Shown here: positions 1-29,347 of the stretch, piece after piece | Position numbering within the stretch: position 1 is the stretch's first letter | Layout: every line of letters starts with the position of its first letter | IMG/VR virus record: IMGVR_UViG_3300027861_000012 | Span: 1 to 32,379 of that record | Direction: 5' to 3' (one strand) | From: a virus | DNA length: 32,379 bases | Translations under genes and position numbers: made by a program | Notes under the pieces: model-generated | Database searches by the model: none | What the model saw: the letters and a program-made list of their open reading frames with translations, nothing else | What the model was told of the DNA's origin: nothing

Positions 1-336
1 CGGCTCGGCCGCCACGACGGGTTCCGGTTCGACTACCGGCTCGGGCTCCACGACGGGTTCCGGTTCGACTACCGGCTCGGGCTCCACGACGGGTTCCGGT
101 TCGACTACCGGCTCGGGCTCCGAAACTGGGTCGGGCTCTGAAACTGGGTCAGGCTCAGCAACGGGTTCCGGCTCCATGACCGGTTCAGGCTCCACGACCG
201 GTTCGGGCTCCACGACCGGTTCCGGTTCGACTACCGGTTCGGGCTCGACTACCGGTTCGGGCTCCACGACGGGTTCCGGTTCGACTACCGGCTCAGGCTC
301 CACGACGGGTTCCGGTTCGACTACCGGCTCGGGCTC
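1..336 (-). repeat. Tandem repeat coding for PEPVVE units
   Basis: An in-frame tandem array of 18-nt units, often as 36-nt pairs, continues to the window edge. On the minus strand it encodes alternating (V/A)-E-P-E-P-V-V blocks. In the middle (about 120-180) the units diverge to PDPVSE, PVAE and PVME. Near-identical DNA units imply recent expansion or recombination. The plus-strand view reads as a Gly-Ser-Thr repeat that is not expected to be translated. Confidence 0.9.
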
Positions 337-1617
337 CACACCAAGAGTCCAGAGTTCAAAGCCTGTGACATTATCATTGGCACGGAACAGCAATTGGCCA
401 TTCAAGTTGGTCAACGATGTGACACCTGGGCTGGCTGCGCCATCAATGATCTCCCCGACCAGGGACGTTGTGGTGCCATCAGTGGACCACAATTCCAAAC
501 CCGTGTTACCATTGGTGGCCACAAAATACATCGTATTCCCGAGCACCGTAGCATACGGGGCAGCGGCGAGTCCGTGGCCGTCAAGATTGATGTCTTGTAC
601 CACAGTGGTGCCCTCTGCTGTGCCATCCGAGCGCCAGAGTTCGCCACCGATTTCGGGGTCAAGTGCGCCAAAGTAGAGCACACCATTCATGTCGAGCATG
701 TTGATGCCCGCGATAGCTCCGCTACGAATGGCGCTAACCTTGCTTGTGTTGACCCCATCGGACTTCCAAAGGGCATATTGATCAACGCCATCGTTTGCGC
801 GGAAGAACAGGGTGTCACCGGACACGCAGAAACCGGTAGCCCCACCATGGGCACCGCCTGGATTGAAGTCCACAACCAGTTCGGTACCTACTTCGGTTCC
901 GTCCGTGCGCCATAGTTCAACGCCGTGAGTGCGGTCATCAGCATTGAAGTATAGCCGATCTTGGTAGACCACCATGTCAGTATCGCCAAATCCACCCAGG
1001 ATACCAGGTACAATGTCCTTGAGCAGTTCAACAGATCGACCGCTGGCTTTCCAAATCTCATGGCCAGTCTCTTCAGTGCGAGCACGGAAGAACAGGTCAC
1101 CGTTGAAAGCCGTCAAGCTCCGAATATGCTCCGAAGACTCACGCCCGTCATTGATGTTAAGCATCTCGGTGCCCTCAGCAGTGCCGTCAGTCACCCAGAG
1201 TTCGTAGCCGTTGACGTGATCCGTGCCACGGAAGTACAGAAGGTCACCAGCCACAGCGAGTTCACTGGGGTTGACGTTGTTGATCACCTGCTGTGACACC
1301 GCGCCGTCATACTTCCAGAGCGCCCCTGCGCTGGTGAAGTACAACGTGTCCTGGTAACTGGTGAGACAGCTAGGGGACACAATGGACTGTCCGTTGACCC
1401 GCACAGTGCCCTCTGTTGTGCCGTCCGTTTGGTACAACACTGGGCTAACCCCGTCTGCCTCGCGGGCTGCGAAGTAAGCGAGATCCCCGACAGTAATAAT
1501 GTCGTCGGGTCCCTGGTAAAGAGAGTCACCAGCACCCACATTGATGTCGGCAAGAAGGGTGGGCGATACAGAAAGGAGATTACGGCTCTCCAAGGGCTCG
1601 ATGCGTAAACTTCTCAT
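1..1617 (-). CDS. Large surface-type protein with LEPR-XLL-like N-terminus, ELWxxDGT repeats and PEPVVE repeats (C-terminus cut by window edge)
   Basis: The minus frame is open from ATG at 1617 to the window edge (539 codons, no stop). The N-terminus, [16 protein letters not shown], resembles the LEPR-XLL motif found at the start of very large exported proteins, especially in planctomycetes. Residues 40-425 hold about eight repeats of roughly 45 residues, each with a 'LYF' strand and then ELWxxDGTxxGT ([12 protein letters not shown] near 139, [12 protein letters not shown] near 234, [12 protein letters not shown] near 326, ELWSTDGT near 375), which suggests a beta-propeller-like fold. From about residue 428 the chain becomes PEPVVE repeats with PDPVSE variants, a likely rigid stalk. 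Another domain may follow beyond the window. A tail fibre, a host-derived surface protein and a secreted adhesin are all possible. The frame is certain, the role inferred. Confidence 0.85.
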
Positions 1618-1686: not shown

Positions 1687-2217
1687 TCAGGCAGAAGTCA
1701 AACGACAAAGTTCCAGAAGTTCTTCCTTCAGCGCTAAATCAACCGATCCTATGGCTTCTGCCAATAGGCGCGATTCTTCCAGGTACATCCGAATATAGGA
1801 GTTGGGCGGGTCCATTGGCATCTCACGGAGATTGTCAATCCGGTCATACATCTTGATGATCTTCGACTCATTCTCCCCGGCAGCAATCGAATGCCGCATG
1901 ATAGTTTTCCGCTGAGCACGCGGCACATCCTTGAAAGTAGGCCCAATAGCCGGGCATGTCGGATCAGTCAAGTCGATGACCATGTTTGTCACGATTTCAC
2001 CGAAACGATCTTCAAGACCCTGGATAGTCACACCTGTGTCTTCAATGGTGTCATGCAAGAAAGCAGCCGCAACCATCTCCTCGGTTGCGTCAATGTGGAC
2101 AGCTACGCGACCAGCCACACGGGCCGGGTGCGAGATATATTCCACACCCGTGTACTTACGTACCTGACCACGATGGGCTTTACGTGCAAACTGGGCAGCT
2201 TCAAGAATCAGGCTCAT
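1687..2217 (-). CDS. HD-domain protein of the SpoT/MESH1 type, probable (p)ppGpp pyrophosphohydrolase-like
   Basis: The protein has 176 residues from the ATG at 2217, chosen because GGAG lies six bases upstream; an in-frame ATG at 2256 would overlap the preceding gene more. The N-terminus has the RelA/SpoT hydrolase pattern: AHRGQVRKYTG...YISHP (His30), FLHDTIEDTG with the metal-binding His55-Asp56, and KMYDRIDNLRE with the second Asp (124). There is no synthetase or regulatory domain, so it resembles the small single-domain hydrolases (MESH1), which remove pyrophosphate from ppGpp or act on related nucleotides. It overlaps the hydrolase gene by 17 nt. Given the guanine-nucleotide enzymes in the same window, a role in blunting the stringent response is reasonable but inferred. 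Confidence 0.85.
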   Translation of the reverse strand: MSLILEAAQFARKAHRGQVRKYTGVEYISHPARVAGRVAVHIDATEEMVAAAFLHDTIEDTGVTIQGLEDRFGEIVTNMVIDLTDPTCPAIGPTFKDVPRAQRKTIMRHSIAAGENESKIIKMYDRIDNLREMPMDPPNSYIRMYLEESRLLAEAIGSVDLALKEELLELCRLTSA

Positions 2218-3025
2218 CGTTATCTCCAGTGAAAAGGTCAAACATCCCCGGAACATCCAGGTGGTCTTGTAAAGCGTGGCTGCGGCCTACGGTGGTACTC
2301 AGGTCCCACACCGTACAACTTGTTGCTTGCGTTGGACCATTCAGGCCCATAGCCGGTACGCCTCGTGGTCGAAACATCTGCGGATACAATTGCAAGATTG
2401 GGTCCAGGTGGTTACGTGTCACAGTTGTAGTGGCATGTGTAAGGACACGATCATTTGCACGCCCGCCCTCGAAACTGTGATCATCAATGGCAGCCGCCAG
2501 TAACACTAACCTGCGAATCTGCATGTCCTGGAGTGGGAACTGGCGGCCAGCAATCTCGCCTCCAGCCAGCAATTGAACCGTACCTGTGACAATTCGTGCC
2601 CCAAAGCTATGGCCCACTAAGGTAGTTGGCACATCAGCATCATGCAAATAGGTAGCCAGGTAATAGGCTTGGGTATCACAATGGCGAGCCTTCATTCTGG
2701 CATCATTGCGCGGCCCAGGGATTTTGTCGCTAGGCCATGACCAAATCACAAACTGGAATCGCTCTCGATCCTTGAGTCGCTGGTAGATACCCAATCCTGT
2801 TTGAATGGAGTCCTCACGGCTGGTTCGGTTACCATGGGCGAACACAATCAGAGGGCGTGTGGGGATCACGTCGCTACGTGACACCATCTTCCACTCCCTG
2901 TCATGCACCCAGTACCGCATCTCCGTAGTATCGGTTTGGCGAGTCGGAGCTTCCCGTGTACTAATCAGTACCAAGCGAGCTTGGGCCGACGCCGGGAAAC
3001 ACAACAGCAGCAAGACGTACTTCAT
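2201..3025 (-). CDS. Secreted alpha/beta hydrolase
   Basis: The protein has 274 residues. The start at 3025 (MKYVLLLLCFPASAQA) overlaps the upstream stop as ATGA and gives a good signal peptide with a likely cut after Ala-Gln-Ala; an in-frame ATG at 3043 adds six residues and is less likely. The fold is shown by VFAHGNRTS (oxyanion region, about 61-69), WSWPSD (95-100), the nucleophile elbow GHSFGA (Ser140) and LLAAAIDD (about 175-182); the catalytic His is not certain. The HGNR...WSWPS pattern matches a family I remember as common in planctomycetes. The substrate is unknown; it acts outside the cytoplasm. Placed after several tiny membrane proteins, it could help attack the cell envelope, but that is speculation. 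Confidence 0.8.
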   Translation of the reverse strand: MKYVLLLLCFPASAQARLVLISTREAPTRQTDTTEMRYWVHDREWKMVSRSDVIPTRPLIVFAHGNRTSREDSIQTGLGIYQRLKDRERFQFVIWSWPSDKIPGPRNDARMKARHCDTQAYYLATYLHDADVPTTLVGHSFGARIVTGTVQLLAGGEIAGRQFPLQDMQIRRLVLLAAAIDDHSFEGGRANDRVLTHATTTVTRNHLDPILQLYPQMFRPRGVPAMGLNGPTQATSCTVWDLSTTVGRSHALQDHLDVPGMFDLFTGDNDEPDS

Positions 3026-3195
3026 TCTCGATGGCACCACCATGAAAGAATGAATGCACCAAGCGAAACAATAGCGAGCCGATGGACCATAGGAGTTTCA
3101 CCAGCTTCAATGTAAACAAGGGCTCCCCAGCCACCTGCCAGTACAGCAACCAATACCAAGAGTGTGGCCAGTAGGGTACGTATTGTGTCATTCAT
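3022..3195 (-). CDS. Small two-helix membrane protein (57 aa)
   Basis: MNDTIRTLLATLLVLVAVLA begins a hydrophobic helix (about 7-28), and a second helix spans about 38-53 (HRLAIVSLGAFILSWW). GAGG lies six bases before the ATG, and the stop overlaps the hydrolase start as ATGA, which supports both genes. Short hydrophobic proteins next to an exported hydrolase could be holin- or spanin-like, but no family is recognised. Confidence 0.7.
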   Translation of the reverse strand: MNDTIRTLLATLLVLVAVLAGGWGALVYIEAGETPMVHRLAIVSLGAFILSWWCHRE

Positions 3196-3271
3196 ACTCG
3201 CCTCGCTCAGCCGCTTTGGCCCACTTGCGAAAACAATTACACAGGGCGGTACCGATTCCTAAGACGACCAT
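3188..3271 (-). CDS. Possible 27-residue peptide
   Basis: ATG at 3271 with GGGGTG just upstream opens a frame for MVVLGIGTALCNCFRKWAKA followed by AERGEYE and TGA at 3188. It overlaps the next gene by 8 nt and the preceding one by 13 nt, in keeping with the local style of coupling. Length and lack of homology keep this tentative. Confidence 0.35.
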   Translation of the reverse strand: MVVLGIGTALCNCFRKWAKAAERGEYE

Positions 3272-3420
3272 GACACCCCGGAACGCGCAGCGATATCCCA
3301 GCCACCAGCCATTACTGAAATCGCCGCTACAACCCCCGCAATGCAGGCAATGATAAGACAGATGCCAAACAGAATTTCCCAGATCGCGTTCATGTTAAAC
3401 CCCGCAGGTTCGTTACTCAT
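3259..3420 (-). CDS. Small membrane protein (53 aa)
   Basis: The start at 3420 is preceded by GGAGAAGGACG, a good ribosome binding site; an upstream ATG at 3450 in the same frame is less favoured. A hydrophobic helix covers about residues 14-37 (WEILFGICLIIACIAGVVAA). It overlaps the upstream 37-residue gene by 8 nt. No family recognised; one of three consecutive tiny membrane proteins. Confidence 0.6.
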   Translation of the reverse strand: MSNEPAGFNMNAIWEILFGICLIIACIAGVVAAISVMAGGWDIAARSGVSWSS

Positions 3421-3526
3421 CGTCCTTCTCCCCGGCTTTCGCCTTAGCATCTAGTTCACGTTGCTCAATAACACCCATCACCATACACAAGGTGAAGATT
3501 AACAGGATACAAGTTAGCTGTATCAT
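3413..3526 (-). CDS. Small membrane-anchored protein (37 aa)
   Basis: MIQLTCILLIFTLCMVMGVI forms one N-terminal helix, followed by a charged tail rich in Glu, Lys and Asp. AAGGAGG lies eight bases before the ATG, one of the strongest ribosome sites in the window, so the short frame is probably translated. It ends within the start of the next gene. Confidence 0.6.
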   Translation of the reverse strand: MIQLTCILLIFTLCMVMGVIEQRELDAKAKAGEKDDE

Positions 3527-3527
3527 C

Positions 3528-3914
3528 TCAGCAGCCTCCTTCTTGTTTCACGTCCCTAGTGAGCCAGGCGTTGCGACGTACCGCATCTAGCTCGTCTCGG
3601 GTTTCCTGAAGCTTAACCTTCAAGAACTCCATGTATGCAAAGTCGTGTGCCCGCTCCACACAGAACTCGACCGGCACTTCCTTCAGGTAGAGGTACACAA
3701 AGATAGCCGCAGACTTTCGAGCAACGATCTCGTCATCAAAGCTGCCAAGGTCAATGAAACCATGTTTCCAGACAAGCATCCAGGAATGACCGAAGGGATG
3801 CGGTGATTCGTTCCCATGGCCGTCAGTCACAGCGTCACAATCCTCCACCGCGACATCGTTGTCCTGGAGAACTTGTTCGTACTGCTCATCTAGGTAGAAA
3901 CCCAAATCACTCAT
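3528..3914 (-). CDS. Hypothetical protein (128 aa)
   Basis: An acidic soluble protein with no recognised domain. AAGGG precedes the ATG at 3914, four bases after the rtcB stop. It contains His- and Trp-bearing stretches (HPFGHSWMLVWKHGF, about 39-53) and a helical charged C-terminus. Its start region and ribosome site (3891-3918) are duplicated with one base missing just upstream of rtcB (5103-5129). Confidence 0.7.
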   Translation of the reverse strand: MSDLGFYLDEQYEQVLQDNDVAVEDCDAVTDGHGNESPHPFGHSWMLVWKHGFIDLGSFDDEIVARKSAAIFVYLYLKEVPVEFCVERAHDFAYMEFLKVKLQETRDELDAVRRNAWLTRDVKQEGGC

Positions 3915-3918
3915 CCCT
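3891..3918. repeat. Direct repeat copy 1 flanking rtcB (start of the 128-aa gene)
   Basis: This 28-nt stretch holds the ribosome site and first codons (MSDLGFYL) of the downstream gene. It recurs at 5103-5129 with a single A missing, in the same orientation, on the other side of rtcB. Confidence 0.8.
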
Positions 3919-5079
3919 TCATCCCTTCACCACTGCGATTGGTTGCAAACGTGTTTTGATGTCCACAAGATCCTGTTGGTTCTGCATCACTACTGTAATG
4001 TCCTTGTAGGCTCCGGGTGCCTCATCCAGATCCTTTTCTCCACGGATACTGTGAAGGATACCTGCCATGCTAGCTTGCTCATCTTCCAATGACAAAACTC
4101 GGCAGGCTTGTTTCCGGCCCATCTTCCGTCCGGCACCATGCGAACACGATTTGAAACTATCCGTGTGGCCCAGCCCCGATGTGATGAACGATGATGTCCC
4201 CTGGCTACCCGGAATGATTCCAATCTCCCCCAGCTTCGCTGACGTTGCACCCTTCCGATGAACCATGACATTCTGCCCAAAGTGATGCTCCATGCGAGCG
4301 TAGTTGTGCGCAATGTTGATGGTGTCAGAAGGTGCCACCAACGTGTCGCTAACTTCCTGCAAGACTTCAAGGACTTGTTCCATCATCTCTAGCCGGTTAT
4401 TCAATGCAAATTCGACACAGTATTCCATCTCGTCAATGTAACATCGACCACTCGGTGAATCCAGCGAGAGAAATGCCAGATCCACTGATGTGGGCACACT
4501 GGAATACCACTCCGCATTCAATTGCTTGGCAACCTTGTTGTAGTGGTCGGCGACCTTGTAGCCCAGGTTGCGTGATCCAGAGTGGATCATCACCCACAGG
4601 TCCCCCTCCTCTACATCCAGTTGAAGTTCGATGAAGTGATTGCCGCCACCGAGGGTGCCTAGCGACTTGCGAGCATTGAAATACTCCCTGTCAACAACCG
4701 GCATGTGCCGACCATTCATGTTTGGCATCAAGGTTTCTGGCCGTGCGGCTCGGTGCTTGTCGAAGCCAACGGGAATCCGCTTGCGTATCAAACCGAGAAT
4801 CTTTTTGAGTGTCCACTCGTCGGGGCGTTTCAGTTCCGTTTGTACGGCACACATTCCGCAACCGATATCGACGCCAACAGCATTAGGGACTACGACACCA
4901 CTGGTTGCCATAACACCGCCGATTGGCATCCCGTAGCCCATGTGGGCGTCCGGCATGAGGGCAATATGGCGAAAGGCAAATGGCAGGTTAGCAAGATTAT
5001 GTGCCTGCGTGAGCGCAACATCTTCAAGGTCCCCGAGCCACATCTTGATTGGCAGTTTTTGTGACGTGTCGATTTTCAT
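3919..5079 (-). CDS. rtcB: RNA 3'-phosphate / 2',3'-cyclic phosphate ligase RtcB
   Basis: RtcB joins RNA 3'-phosphate or 2',3'-cyclic phosphate ends to 5'-OH ends using GTP and manganese, as in tRNA splicing and repair. The 386-residue protein starts at 5079 (GGGGATCGC upstream; the frame extends to 5121 without a better site). Diagnostic motifs are intact: LMPDAHMGYGMPIG (41-54), VGVDIGCGM with Asp71 and Cys74, GGGNHF (His147), IHSGSRNLG (His166), VMVHRKGATS (His274), IPGSQGTSSF (289-298) and SHGAGR with the guanylylated His314. It is slightly shorter than E. coli RtcB. No archease gene is visible nearby. The flanking direct repeats suggest it was inserted here. Probable role: resealing tRNAs cut by host anticodon nucleases (inference). 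Confidence 0.97.
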   Translation of the reverse strand: MKIDTSQKLPIKMWLGDLEDVALTQAHNLANLPFAFRHIALMPDAHMGYGMPIGGVMATSGVVVPNAVGVDIGCGMCAVQTELKRPDEWTLKKILGLIRKRIPVGFDKHRAARPETLMPNMNGRHMPVVDREYFNARKSLGTLGGGNHFIELQLDVEEGDLWVMIHSGSRNLGYKVADHYNKVAKQLNAEWYSSVPTSVDLAFLSLDSPSGRCYIDEMEYCVEFALNNRLEMMEQVLEVLQEVSDTLVAPSDTINIAHNYARMEHHFGQNVMVHRKGATSAKLGEIGIIPGSQGTSSFITSGLGHTDSFKSCSHGAGRKMGRKQACRVLSLEDEQASMAGILHSIRGEKDLDEAPGAYKDITVVMQNQQDLVDIKTRLQPIAVVKG

Positions 5080-5102
5080 GCGATCCCCATGGATTAACGG
5101 AA

Positions 5103-5129
5103 TAGGTAGAAACCCAATCACTCATCCCT
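5103..5129. repeat. Direct repeat copy 2 flanking rtcB
   Basis: These 27 nt match 3891-3918 apart from one missing A, which puts the copied start codon out of frame after three codons. It lies between the stop of the zinc-ribbon gene (5122) and the rtcB start (5079), so it looks like a dead copy of the 5' end of the gene that now lies downstream of rtcB. Confidence 0.8.
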
Positions 5130-5355
5130 GCATCTCTCTGCTGTAGGTTTTGATCTTCTCGTCGGTGTCCGGGTCAAGCATAAATTGGAGTACCAAACGA
5201 TTCAGGATTACATCACAACTGAGACATATTGGTCGCCAGAGTCCACCGTCAGCGCAGGCCGCCCACTGTTGGGATGCTGGCTTCCCGCAGCGAACGCACT
5301 TCATTCGCTTGATCCCAATCTCAGTGTAGGGTTCTGTGCGGCCAGCCCTATCCAT
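5122..5355 (-). CDS. Small zinc-ribbon-like phage protein (77 aa)
   Basis: The start at 5355 has GGGAG upstream and overlaps the previous stop by 8 nt. Starting at MKCVRCGK (5304) is also possible, because the recognisable module begins there. The core is KCVRCGKPA ... CADGGLWRPICLSCD (two CxxC knuckles), followed by NRLVLQFMLDPD. I recognise this layout from small phage proteins of unknown function. Probably binds zinc; no reaction assigned. Confidence 0.75.
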   Translation of the reverse strand: MDRAGRTEPYTEIGIKRMKCVRCGKPASQQWAACADGGLWRPICLSCDVILNRLVLQFMLDPDTDEKIKTYSREMQG

Positions 5356-5548
5356 CCAACATCTCCCGTATGACGATGTCAACAAAGTCGGTGTTGATCA
5401 AACCCGTCATAGCAAATTCAGTCAATGCATCGTCTGGGATTGATATCTCCCGCCCGTAATGCATCCAAGTGACTTCCTCAATCGGAACTGCATTGATTCG
5501 ATGCCGCTCTTTGATGGCAGCAAATACCTCTTCTACATTGATGATCAT
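5348..5548 (-). CDS. Hypothetical protein (66 aa)
   Basis: A short acidic soluble protein without a recognised domain. The ATG overlaps the exonuclease stop (ATGA), which supports the start. The end overlaps the next gene by 8 nt. Confidence 0.65.
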   Translation of the reverse strand: MIINVEEVFAAIKERHRINAVPIEEVTWMHYGREISIPDDALTEFAMTGLINTDFVDIVIREMLDG

Positions 5549-25503: not shown

Positions 25504-25800
25504 TTATTGGGCCACACATAACTCGCTGTACCGGCAATAACGGTCATGGATTTTACACCAGTCTCGTGACATGGGGTCATCAGTTACGGTACGATTTTGA
25601 CAACTGATTTGTCCGCTGTAGTCTGTCTCGAATTCAGTAGCCTTCATGGACTTGGGTATGTATGGTCGGTTCTCTCGGCAACCGTCTTTCCAATTGGCCA
25701 CAGGTTCAATGTTCTCGCCATGTTGACCACAACTGTAACAGATCCATCCGTCTTCAACGATGGTAACCGGTCGATTGCAATGCCAACATAAAAGGATCAT
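25504..25800 (-). CDS. Zinc-ribbon protein (98 aa)
   Basis: The start is ATG at 25800, overlapping the Thg1 stop as ATGA. CWHCNRPV ... WICYSCGQHG (5-26) is a classic zinc ribbon. A second set of Cys/His residues near the C-terminus (WCKIHDRYCRYSELC) may bind another metal. It follows Thg1 directly and could be a partner, but no function is known. Confidence 0.65.
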   Translation of the reverse strand: MILLCWHCNRPVTIVEDGWICYSCGQHGENIEPVANWKDGCRENRPYIPKSMKATEFETDYSGQISCQNRTVTDDPMSRDWCKIHDRYCRYSELCVAQ

Positions 25801-26519
25801 AGCGGCATCACCCTTTCCCAACGGTTGCTAATCTCTCCAAAGCCAGGCAGCACAGCTTCATTGATCTCGATCCCAGATTTGCCAATACCCCAGTCTGATT
25901 TTTTCAAAAGGAAAGTACCATTCTTGGCAACATCATCAAGGTGTGCCCAATTGACACCCTCGTTGTGCAACATCTCATGCATATCGGCTTGAGTCTTTTT
26001 GTGTAGCTGCTTGTGGGAGAAGTGGGCTCCGGCAAGCATCTGCACCGAGTTACGCTTCCAGTCGAGTGCCCGAGCCAGGAAGTAGTTGACTACTTCATCC
26101 TCTGGGATATTGAAAGCACGCGCATCAAAGACCGCCGGGGTCGTTATGCCCATGAGACGCATGTTGCGACCGAAATTTGCAGTCATCAGGGCTGCGGAGA
26201 TGCTCTCCACCTTGTTCTGCACATAACCGAACCAAGCATCCGTATCCAGGTTGTCATAGTCTGTGAGAACAAAACTGGCTTCATCGCTCTGAACATAGCC
26301 CATCTTGAAACCCTGCATCTCGTTGGCTACCCCGATGGCTGCACCTTGCATGGATTCAATGAGCTTGTAATCAAACGGCTTCTTGAACCCATGTTGTTTA
26401 GTGAATGTGTGAAACGCTCGGCCATCGACGCGCACAATCACAGGGGTGCGGCGAGTAAGGAACCGGCGAGCCGGTAACTCGTAGTTACGCTTCATGCGGT
26501 CCATGATGGATTCACTCAT
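25797..26519 (-). CDS. tRNA-His guanylyltransferase-like 3'-5' polymerase (Thg1 superfamily)
   Basis: Thg1 and Thg1-like proteins add nucleotides to RNA 5' ends in the 3'-to-5' direction, maturing tRNA-His or repairing truncated tRNAs. The 240-residue protein has the catalytic VIVRVDGRAFHTFTK (27-41, metal Asp32), GYVQSDEASFVL (74-85, Asp79), the FDARAFNIP block (131-139) and ARALDWKRNSV (149-159). Bacterial and phage members are usually repair-type Thg1-like proteins rather than true His enzymes, but this one cannot be placed by eye. With RtcB and phage tRNAs it suggests tRNA maintenance during infection. Overlaps the HNH remnant (ATGA). Confidence 0.93.
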   Translation of the reverse strand: MSESIMDRMKRNYELPARRFLTRRTPVIVRVDGRAFHTFTKQHGFKKPFDYKLIESMQGAAIGVANEMQGFKMGYVQSDEASFVLTDYDNLDTDAWFGYVQNKVESISAALMTANFGRNMRLMGITTPAVFDARAFNIPEDEVVNYFLARALDWKRNSVQMLAGAHFSHKQLHKKTQADMHEMLHNEGVNWAHLDDVAKNGTFLLKKSDWGIGKSGIEINEAVLPGFGEISNRWERVMPL

Positions 26520-26782: not shown

Positions 26783-26794
26783 GCTATCCTCAAG

Positions 26795-26868
26795 CTCCGG
26801 AGGCTGGACTCGAACCAGCAACCCCACGGGTAACAGCCGTGTACTCTACGCAATTGAGCTACTCCGGA
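26795..26868 (-). tRNA. tRNA-Asn (GTT)
   Basis: A full cloverleaf on the minus strand: acceptor TCCGGAG pairs with CTCCGGA, anticodon stem CACGG/CCGTG encloses loop CTGTTAC (anticodon GTT), and the T arm is GCTGG-TTCGAGT-CCAGC. Discriminator G; the 3' CCA is not encoded. Confidence 0.92.
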
Positions 26869-29251: not shown

Positions 29252-29274
29252 TGGTACTCTCCTGGGTCTAATGG

Positions 29275-29347
29275 AGCCGCCGGTGGGACTCGAACCCACA
29301 ACCTTCGGATTACAAATCCGACGCTCTGCCAATTGAGCTACAGCGGC
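29275..29347 (-). tRNA. tRNA-Thr (TGT)
   Basis: A full cloverleaf: acceptor GCCGCTG/CGGCGGC (one G-T pair), D arm GCTCAATTGGCAGAGC, anticodon stem TCGGA/TCCGA around TTTGTAA (anticodon TGT), T arm GTGGG-TTCGAGT-CCCAC. No 3' CCA encoded. It lies in the 100-nt space between the VWA gene and the 101-aa gene. Confidence 0.94.

Follow-up and report, generated by a model that had tools for sequence, protein, structure and literature searches.

Phages constantly gain and lose accessory genes, and the joints between old and new DNA are usually too worn to show how this happened. In the mycobacteriophage LRRHood, a 1.35-kb segment (genes 43-46) lies between 29-bp direct repeats, and the repeat is single in relatives; whether the segment was gained or lost was left open by its authors (Pope et al. 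2011, PMC3029335). Classical morons are inserted genes that carry their own promoter and terminator (PMC3029335). In T4-like phages, PeSLs (promoter early stem-loops) are described as promoter-terminator motifs that are dense in shuffling regions (PMC4503421).

Here, we analyze a phage rtcB gene, encoding an RNA ligase, that resembles the LRRHood segment in being accessory DNA between direct repeats of nearly equal length, with a single copy in phage that lack it. The two cases differ in that LRRHood gained or lost four genes and this locus holds one, and in that the repeat here is the boundary of two overlapping genes, one copy of which is decaying. The rtcB insertion is the same kind of event as the LRRHood case, so the kind is already known. 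What our locus adds is one gene of clear function, a decaying copy, and an argument for the direction of change. As in phage morons and other single accessory-gene insertions, one complete gene stands in the orientation of its neighbors, which are intact and lie adjacent in the relative. Boundary duplication, however, is no part of the moron definition, and the insert, consisting of rtcB and a 23-nt leader, has little room for a promoter or terminator. PeSL cassettes, as described there, are similar in having repeated boundary sequence next to a shuffled gene, but here there are only two copies, which consist of a ribosome site and coding sequence. The literature searched contained no account of a duplicated boundary around a phage rtcB, which is weak evidence given its partial coverage.

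Results

The window, that is, the whole stretch of DNA analyzed (32,379 nucleotides), comprises bases 1-32379 of a 177,656-base virus record (G000). Its genes are of phage-type replication and metabolism, and nearly all lie on the minus strand. They include a family A DNA polymerase, a ParB-like protein, a DNA ligase, two DNA methylases, an IMPDH-type enzyme, Thg1 and RtcB, together with two tRNAs and a tmRNA. The rtcB gene stands between genes for a zinc-ribbon protein, for which an alternative TTG start at 5385 is possible, and a 128-aa protein (Table 1). Neither of these two proteins has a match in Pfam or PHROG.

Table 1. Features of the rtcB locus and RNA-related genes of the window. G001 is the relative without rtcB.
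Feature	Window position	Strand	Basis
128-aa gene, downstream member of the original overlapping pair	3528..3914	-	ORF; 47% identity homologue G001:851-1183
Copy A: Shine-Dalgarno, start codon (3912-3914), and first codons of the 128-aa gene	3891..3918	-	sequence
rtcB, RNA ligase, 386 aa, inserted gene (1161 nt)	3919..5079	-	Pfam PF01139, E 4.2e-108; PHROG 1075
23-nt leader between copy B and the rtcB start, Shine-Dalgarno-like GGGGA	5080..5102	-	sequence
Copy B, ancestral junction: zinc-ribbon gene end and orphan frameshifted 5' end of the 128-aa gene	5103..5129	-	sequence; G001-like ATGA overlap
Zinc-ribbon protein gene, 60 aa from ATG 5304	5122..5304	-	ORF; 53% identity homologue G001:1201-1371
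Thg1 homologue	25797-26519		
tRNA-Asn	26794-26868		
tRNA-Thr	29272-29347		
tmRNA, tag AKPLFATAA	30158-30505		

The first-pass annotation had described a direct repeat of 27/28 nt flanking rtcB, in the same direction and with one base deleted, and the sequence confirms it. Copy A is AGGGATGAGTGATTTGGGTTTCTACCTA (28 nt) and copy B is AGGGATGAGTGATT-GGGTTTCTACCTA (27 nt); the sole difference within the strict repeat is one T deleted in B. Upstream of the strict repeat, weaker similarity extends for about 8 nt more, giving a local score of 29 over ~36 columns. Copy A begins immediately after the rtcB stop TGA (3919-3921), where AGGGATGAGTG... supplies the 128-aa gene with its ribosome site and start, read as AGGG ATG AGT GAT TTG GGT TTC TAC CTA (3918-3891, minus strand). 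In copy B, by reading frame, the zinc-ribbon gene ends ...CAG GGA TGA, and its stop (TGA, 5122-5124), which falls within the first 8 nt of the copy, overlaps an orphan ATG (5123-5125) as ATGA. Copy A is the live start of the 128-aa gene, and copy B is the old junction with a dead fragment of that start.

Both ends of rtcB can be placed by comparison with its relatives. Since these begin near ATG 5079, this is the most likely start, leaving the 23-nt leader after copy B; an alternative GTG start at 5121 would add 14 aa and run through copy B. The leader is unique to the insert side. The terminal AAG GGA TGA is the gene's own, since other viral RtcBs likewise finish in codons for KG or close to it. 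Base composition gave no signal of foreign origin, as the GC (52%) and GC3 (59%) of rtcB equal those of its neighbors.

The repeat is neither a chance match nor a dispersed element. Beyond the two copies, the best match in the window to a 38-nt copy-A query scores 13, and 60 random 38-mers of the same genome reach at most 17 within the window, against 29 for the repeat; the copy-B pattern had no match in 100 shuffles. A scan of the whole 177,656-base record scored the copies at 28 and 25 and no other site above 12, so the prospect of a general repeat, raised by the first-pass annotation as an argument against insertion, did not materialize, and no third copy of the 28-nt sequence was found. 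A 99.94% identical record (IMGVR_UViG_3300027996_000012) holds both copies unchanged, which argues against mis-assembly of a single contig, although the two samples may not be independent.

The activity that defines RtcB ligases is GTP-dependent ligation of RNA with a 3'-phosphate or 2',3'-cyclic phosphate to 5'-OH RNA. The phage protein, a putative enzyme of this type, matches the PF01139 RtcB family (solved structure: P. horikoshii RtcB, PDB 1uc2) over its full length with conserved catalytic-site residues; at 386 aa, it is shorter than the P. horikoshii enzyme (481 aa). Invariant columns over 10 RtcBs include D71, C74, N147, H148, H166, H258, and H314, and the conserved Asp, Cys, Asn, and His positions form the metal and guanylylation site of the family. 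The phage RtcB thus looks intact. Judging from the protein families, its probable role is to repair tRNAs that host ribonucleases have cleaved, together with Thg1, tRNAs, and tmRNA of the phage. All of these share the window with rtcB, as an RNA-repair and ribosome-rescue set in one phage, and this agrees with what has been described of RNA repair in large phages (PMC7824862). No donor was found: The nearest RtcB, from another phage, is 65% identical, and the RtcB tree is poorly resolved around the G000 protein, with virus and genome rows intermixed.

An empty site occurs in G001 (IMGVR_UViG_3300007764_000001; 128,458 bases), a relative found via its polymerase, which is 82% identical. The two records are syntenic, with 90 reciprocal best hits. 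No rtcB was detected in the G001 record, which is possibly incomplete although the locus itself is intact. The homologues of the zinc-ribbon and 128-aa genes are directly adjacent there, with one junction only, as the first-pass annotation had expected of relatives lacking rtcB; no rtcB-less relative with two copies was encountered. At the G001 joint (...CTTGGAATGAGCGGTTTTCATTTGGCC...), the stop of the zinc-ribbon gene and the start of the gene after it overlap as ATGA, the same arrangement as in copy B. The relative is too diverged for the letters themselves to be preserved (best match to the 28-mer, score 13), and the single copy was judged by flanking coding homology together with the shared overlap. 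Because the undivided junction of G001 has the same ATGA overlap, copy B preserves the old joint, with rtcB placed between two copies of it. In short, an insert present in G000 is absent at the same place in syntenic G001, and a direct repeat on both sides of the insert corresponds to one homologous junction. Protein alignment searches with the zinc-ribbon and 128-aa proteins returned, for the pair, only G001 and the near-identical record; the collections searched contain a single empty-site relative for this locus, and it is diverged.

The similarity of the two copies bears on the age of the event. Four-fold sites are 36.8% identical between G000 and G001 (5,101 sites in 49 genes), which is saturation. 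If the duplication were as old as the split between the two phages, then the free part of copy B would be expected to differ from copy A by ~45%, and a similarity of 27/28 would have a probability of ~1e-6 (28 sites) to 1e-4 (20 sites). This estimate presupposes that gene conversion has not occurred and that copy B, which carries the zinc-ribbon stop in its first 8 nt, is free of selection. Since the copies are this alike while four-fold sites are saturated, the comparison places the insertion later than the split, within these assumptions. To the first-pass annotation, rtcB had seemed a recent addition to an older gene pair: The addition to an older pair stands, while “recent” holds only in the sense of younger than the split of G000 and G001, and not absolutely.

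G000 and G001 differ by 29 gain/loss blocks, each of at least ~250 bases. The rtcB block has a repeat score of 29, against no more than 15 in 200 shuffles. The sole other block above its shuffles is a paralogue array (129.6-130.9 kb; score 21), which derives from a tandem array of ~220-aa ORFs (G000:127621-130919), some of which lack a reciprocal counterpart in G001. A general repeat-scar mechanism in G000 is therefore unsupported: Because no block exceeds its shuffles other than rtcB and the paralogue array, the scar is not a general mark in this genome, or older scars have faded.

Several further differences and repeats were noted in the two phages. The 128-aa and HD-domain genes, whose homologues are neighbors in G001, are separated in the window by an alpha/beta hydrolase-like gene (DUF900) together with small ORFs (2201-3527), a block that has no flanking repeat. 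An array of 18-nt units fills window positions 1-350, and a similar repetitive stretch is found next to the HD-domain gene where the G001 record begins. Divergent operons are separated by a region with two copies, ~190 nt from each other, of a 37-nt repeat that contains a palindrome, GGTGACTTTTGGTAGTGAAAAGTCACC (G000:67306-67342 and 67497-67533; L038). It is kept in G001 at a spacing of ~200 nt (53042-53069 and 53243-53270), and this repeat pair is likely a regulatory or origin element. Last, a diverged partial copy of the first ~95 residues of the polymerase is fused in frame before the ParB-like gene of G001 (G001:13172-17005; L020:10001-13834). As that gene lies directly upstream of the true polymerase, this is another orphan gene start ahead of an intervening gene.

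The same anatomy is found at other loci. In G011 (IMGVR_UViG_3300038461_000042), the leader CTTTCAAGAGAGGATG lies immediately ahead of rtcB and recurs ~9 nt past its end; the 65.5 kb contain exactly these two copies. Its syntenic relative G017 (IMGVR_UViG_3300023311_000098), in which no rtcB was detected, has one copy of the leader before the same 64-aa gene. The gene further upstream differs between these two phages, and the empty site comprises the leader and downstream gene only. This shows that a second phage pair, unrelated to G000 and G001, repeats the rtcB anatomy together with an rtcB-less relative. At a further locus (L193:3917-5215), rtcB is flanked by a 59-nt promoter-like direct repeat (55/59 identical), the second copy of which begins at the rtcB stop codon, and at another (L159) by a repeat of ~25 nt with its second copy at or just after the stop; no empty-site partner was found for either. 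The boundary-repeat pattern is not confined to rtcB, because a control gene (L140:184-670), by sight resembling the YopX family, lies between copies of a 43-nt repeat (41 matches) formed by an orphan start of the gene that follows.

At a loose threshold, flanking repeats occur at 7 of 48 rtcB loci and 5 of 296 control ORFs (Fisher test, P = 3e-4; 1.3e-3 without the window), and at a strict threshold, at 3 and 4 of these, respectively (P = 0.06; 0.19 without the window). Among conserved genes of two phage pairs, the count is 1 of 183. Several versions of the test and several thresholds were tried, the starts assigned to the control ORFs are approximate, and AT-rich start sites raise the counts at the loose threshold. 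An rtcB-specific enrichment of flanking repeats, significant at the loose threshold but not at the strict one, is thus suggestive only.

Discussion

We consider it highly probable that rtcB was inserted at the boundary of the zinc-ribbon and 128-aa genes after the split from G001, duplicating that boundary. The ancestor, judged from G001, would have had the two genes as a pair, with the stop of one overlapping the start of the other (ATGA). After the split, a complete rtcB with its 23-nt leader entered exactly at this boundary, and about 28 nt of it were duplicated, one copy on each side, as the anatomy and the empty site show. Copy B still holds the original stop of the zinc-ribbon gene, together with a start of the 128-aa gene that no longer serves and has since lost one base. 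Copy A furnishes the 128-aa gene with a ribosome-binding site of its own and undamaged first codons. The two old genes would thus remain translatable, and rtcB would be read in the direction of the operon. Boundary duplication leaves both neighbors readable, which may be why such events survive.

Two readings dispute that the repeat is the scar of an insertion in the G000 lineage. If rtcB and both repeats were ancestral, looping out between the 28-nt direct repeats would restore the undivided junction of G001 exactly; one relative alone cannot polarize the change, and the same ambiguity was left open for LRRHood (PMC3029335). The copies, however, differ at only 1 of 28 positions while neutral sites are saturated, so that the duplication must postdate the split unless gene conversion has occurred, and we regard ancestral presence followed by loss as very unlikely. 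It is more improbable still that selection has maintained both copies as a functional element of translation start or regulation. Each copy does contain a Shine-Dalgarno sequence and a start codon, and similar start-region repeats flank rtcB in some other phages; yet the one-base deletion shifts the shared letters into different reading frames, some 20 shared nucleotides come after the start codon, rtcB is equipped with a leader and start of its own, and no other place in the genome resembles the repeat.

Insertion with boundary duplication could have proceeded by more than one route. A transposon or insertion sequence does not fit, as the insert holds rtcB only, with no transposase gene, and no inverted-repeat pair was found at its ends. 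Nor does a homing endonuclease or intron: The inserted gene matches RtcB only (Pfam and PHROG), with no endonuclease domain. The first-pass annotation had suggested a short-homology insertion or a tandem duplication. The boundary duplication is borne out, and both routes are still compatible with the locus, neither being singled out. The most likely route, which we put forward tentatively, is homology-poor recombination during phage DNA replication or repair, in which an rtcB fragment would be captured at a break and the boundary copied twice. Also compatible is homologous capture from a donor phage in which rtcB already preceded the same junction, with a crossover within the 28 nt. It has a precedent in LRRHood with its 29-bp repeats, for which it was proposed as one option (PMC3029335), but no record was found with rtcB beside a diverged copy of the junction, and we think this route rather unlikely. 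The boundary and 128-aa gene might instead have been duplicated in tandem, with rtcB then replacing most of the first copy and sparing its first 24 nt. Copy B, as an orphan start of the 128-aa gene, agrees with this, and in G001 the start of the polymerase gene has been partially duplicated in a comparable way, in front of parB. Such a history nevertheless requires two events, leaves no remnant of the 3' end of the 128-aa gene ahead of rtcB, and has to accommodate a repeat that stops exactly at the rtcB stop codon; we judge it improbable.

The locus combines a scar, an empty site, and an age argument for one gene of clear function, and the pattern recurs in a second phage pair. A common boundary-duplicating route for phage cargo genes is now testable, as is the dropping out again of genes via the repeats. 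That the rtcB of tailed phages repeatedly moves as a precise one-gene cassette to the boundary before a recipient gene, duplicating 17-59 nt and leaving the downstream copy within ~9 nt of the rtcB stop, is a broader proposal that we hold to be doubtful. If true, it would point to a shared and undescribed insertion route for rtcB and other small accessory genes.
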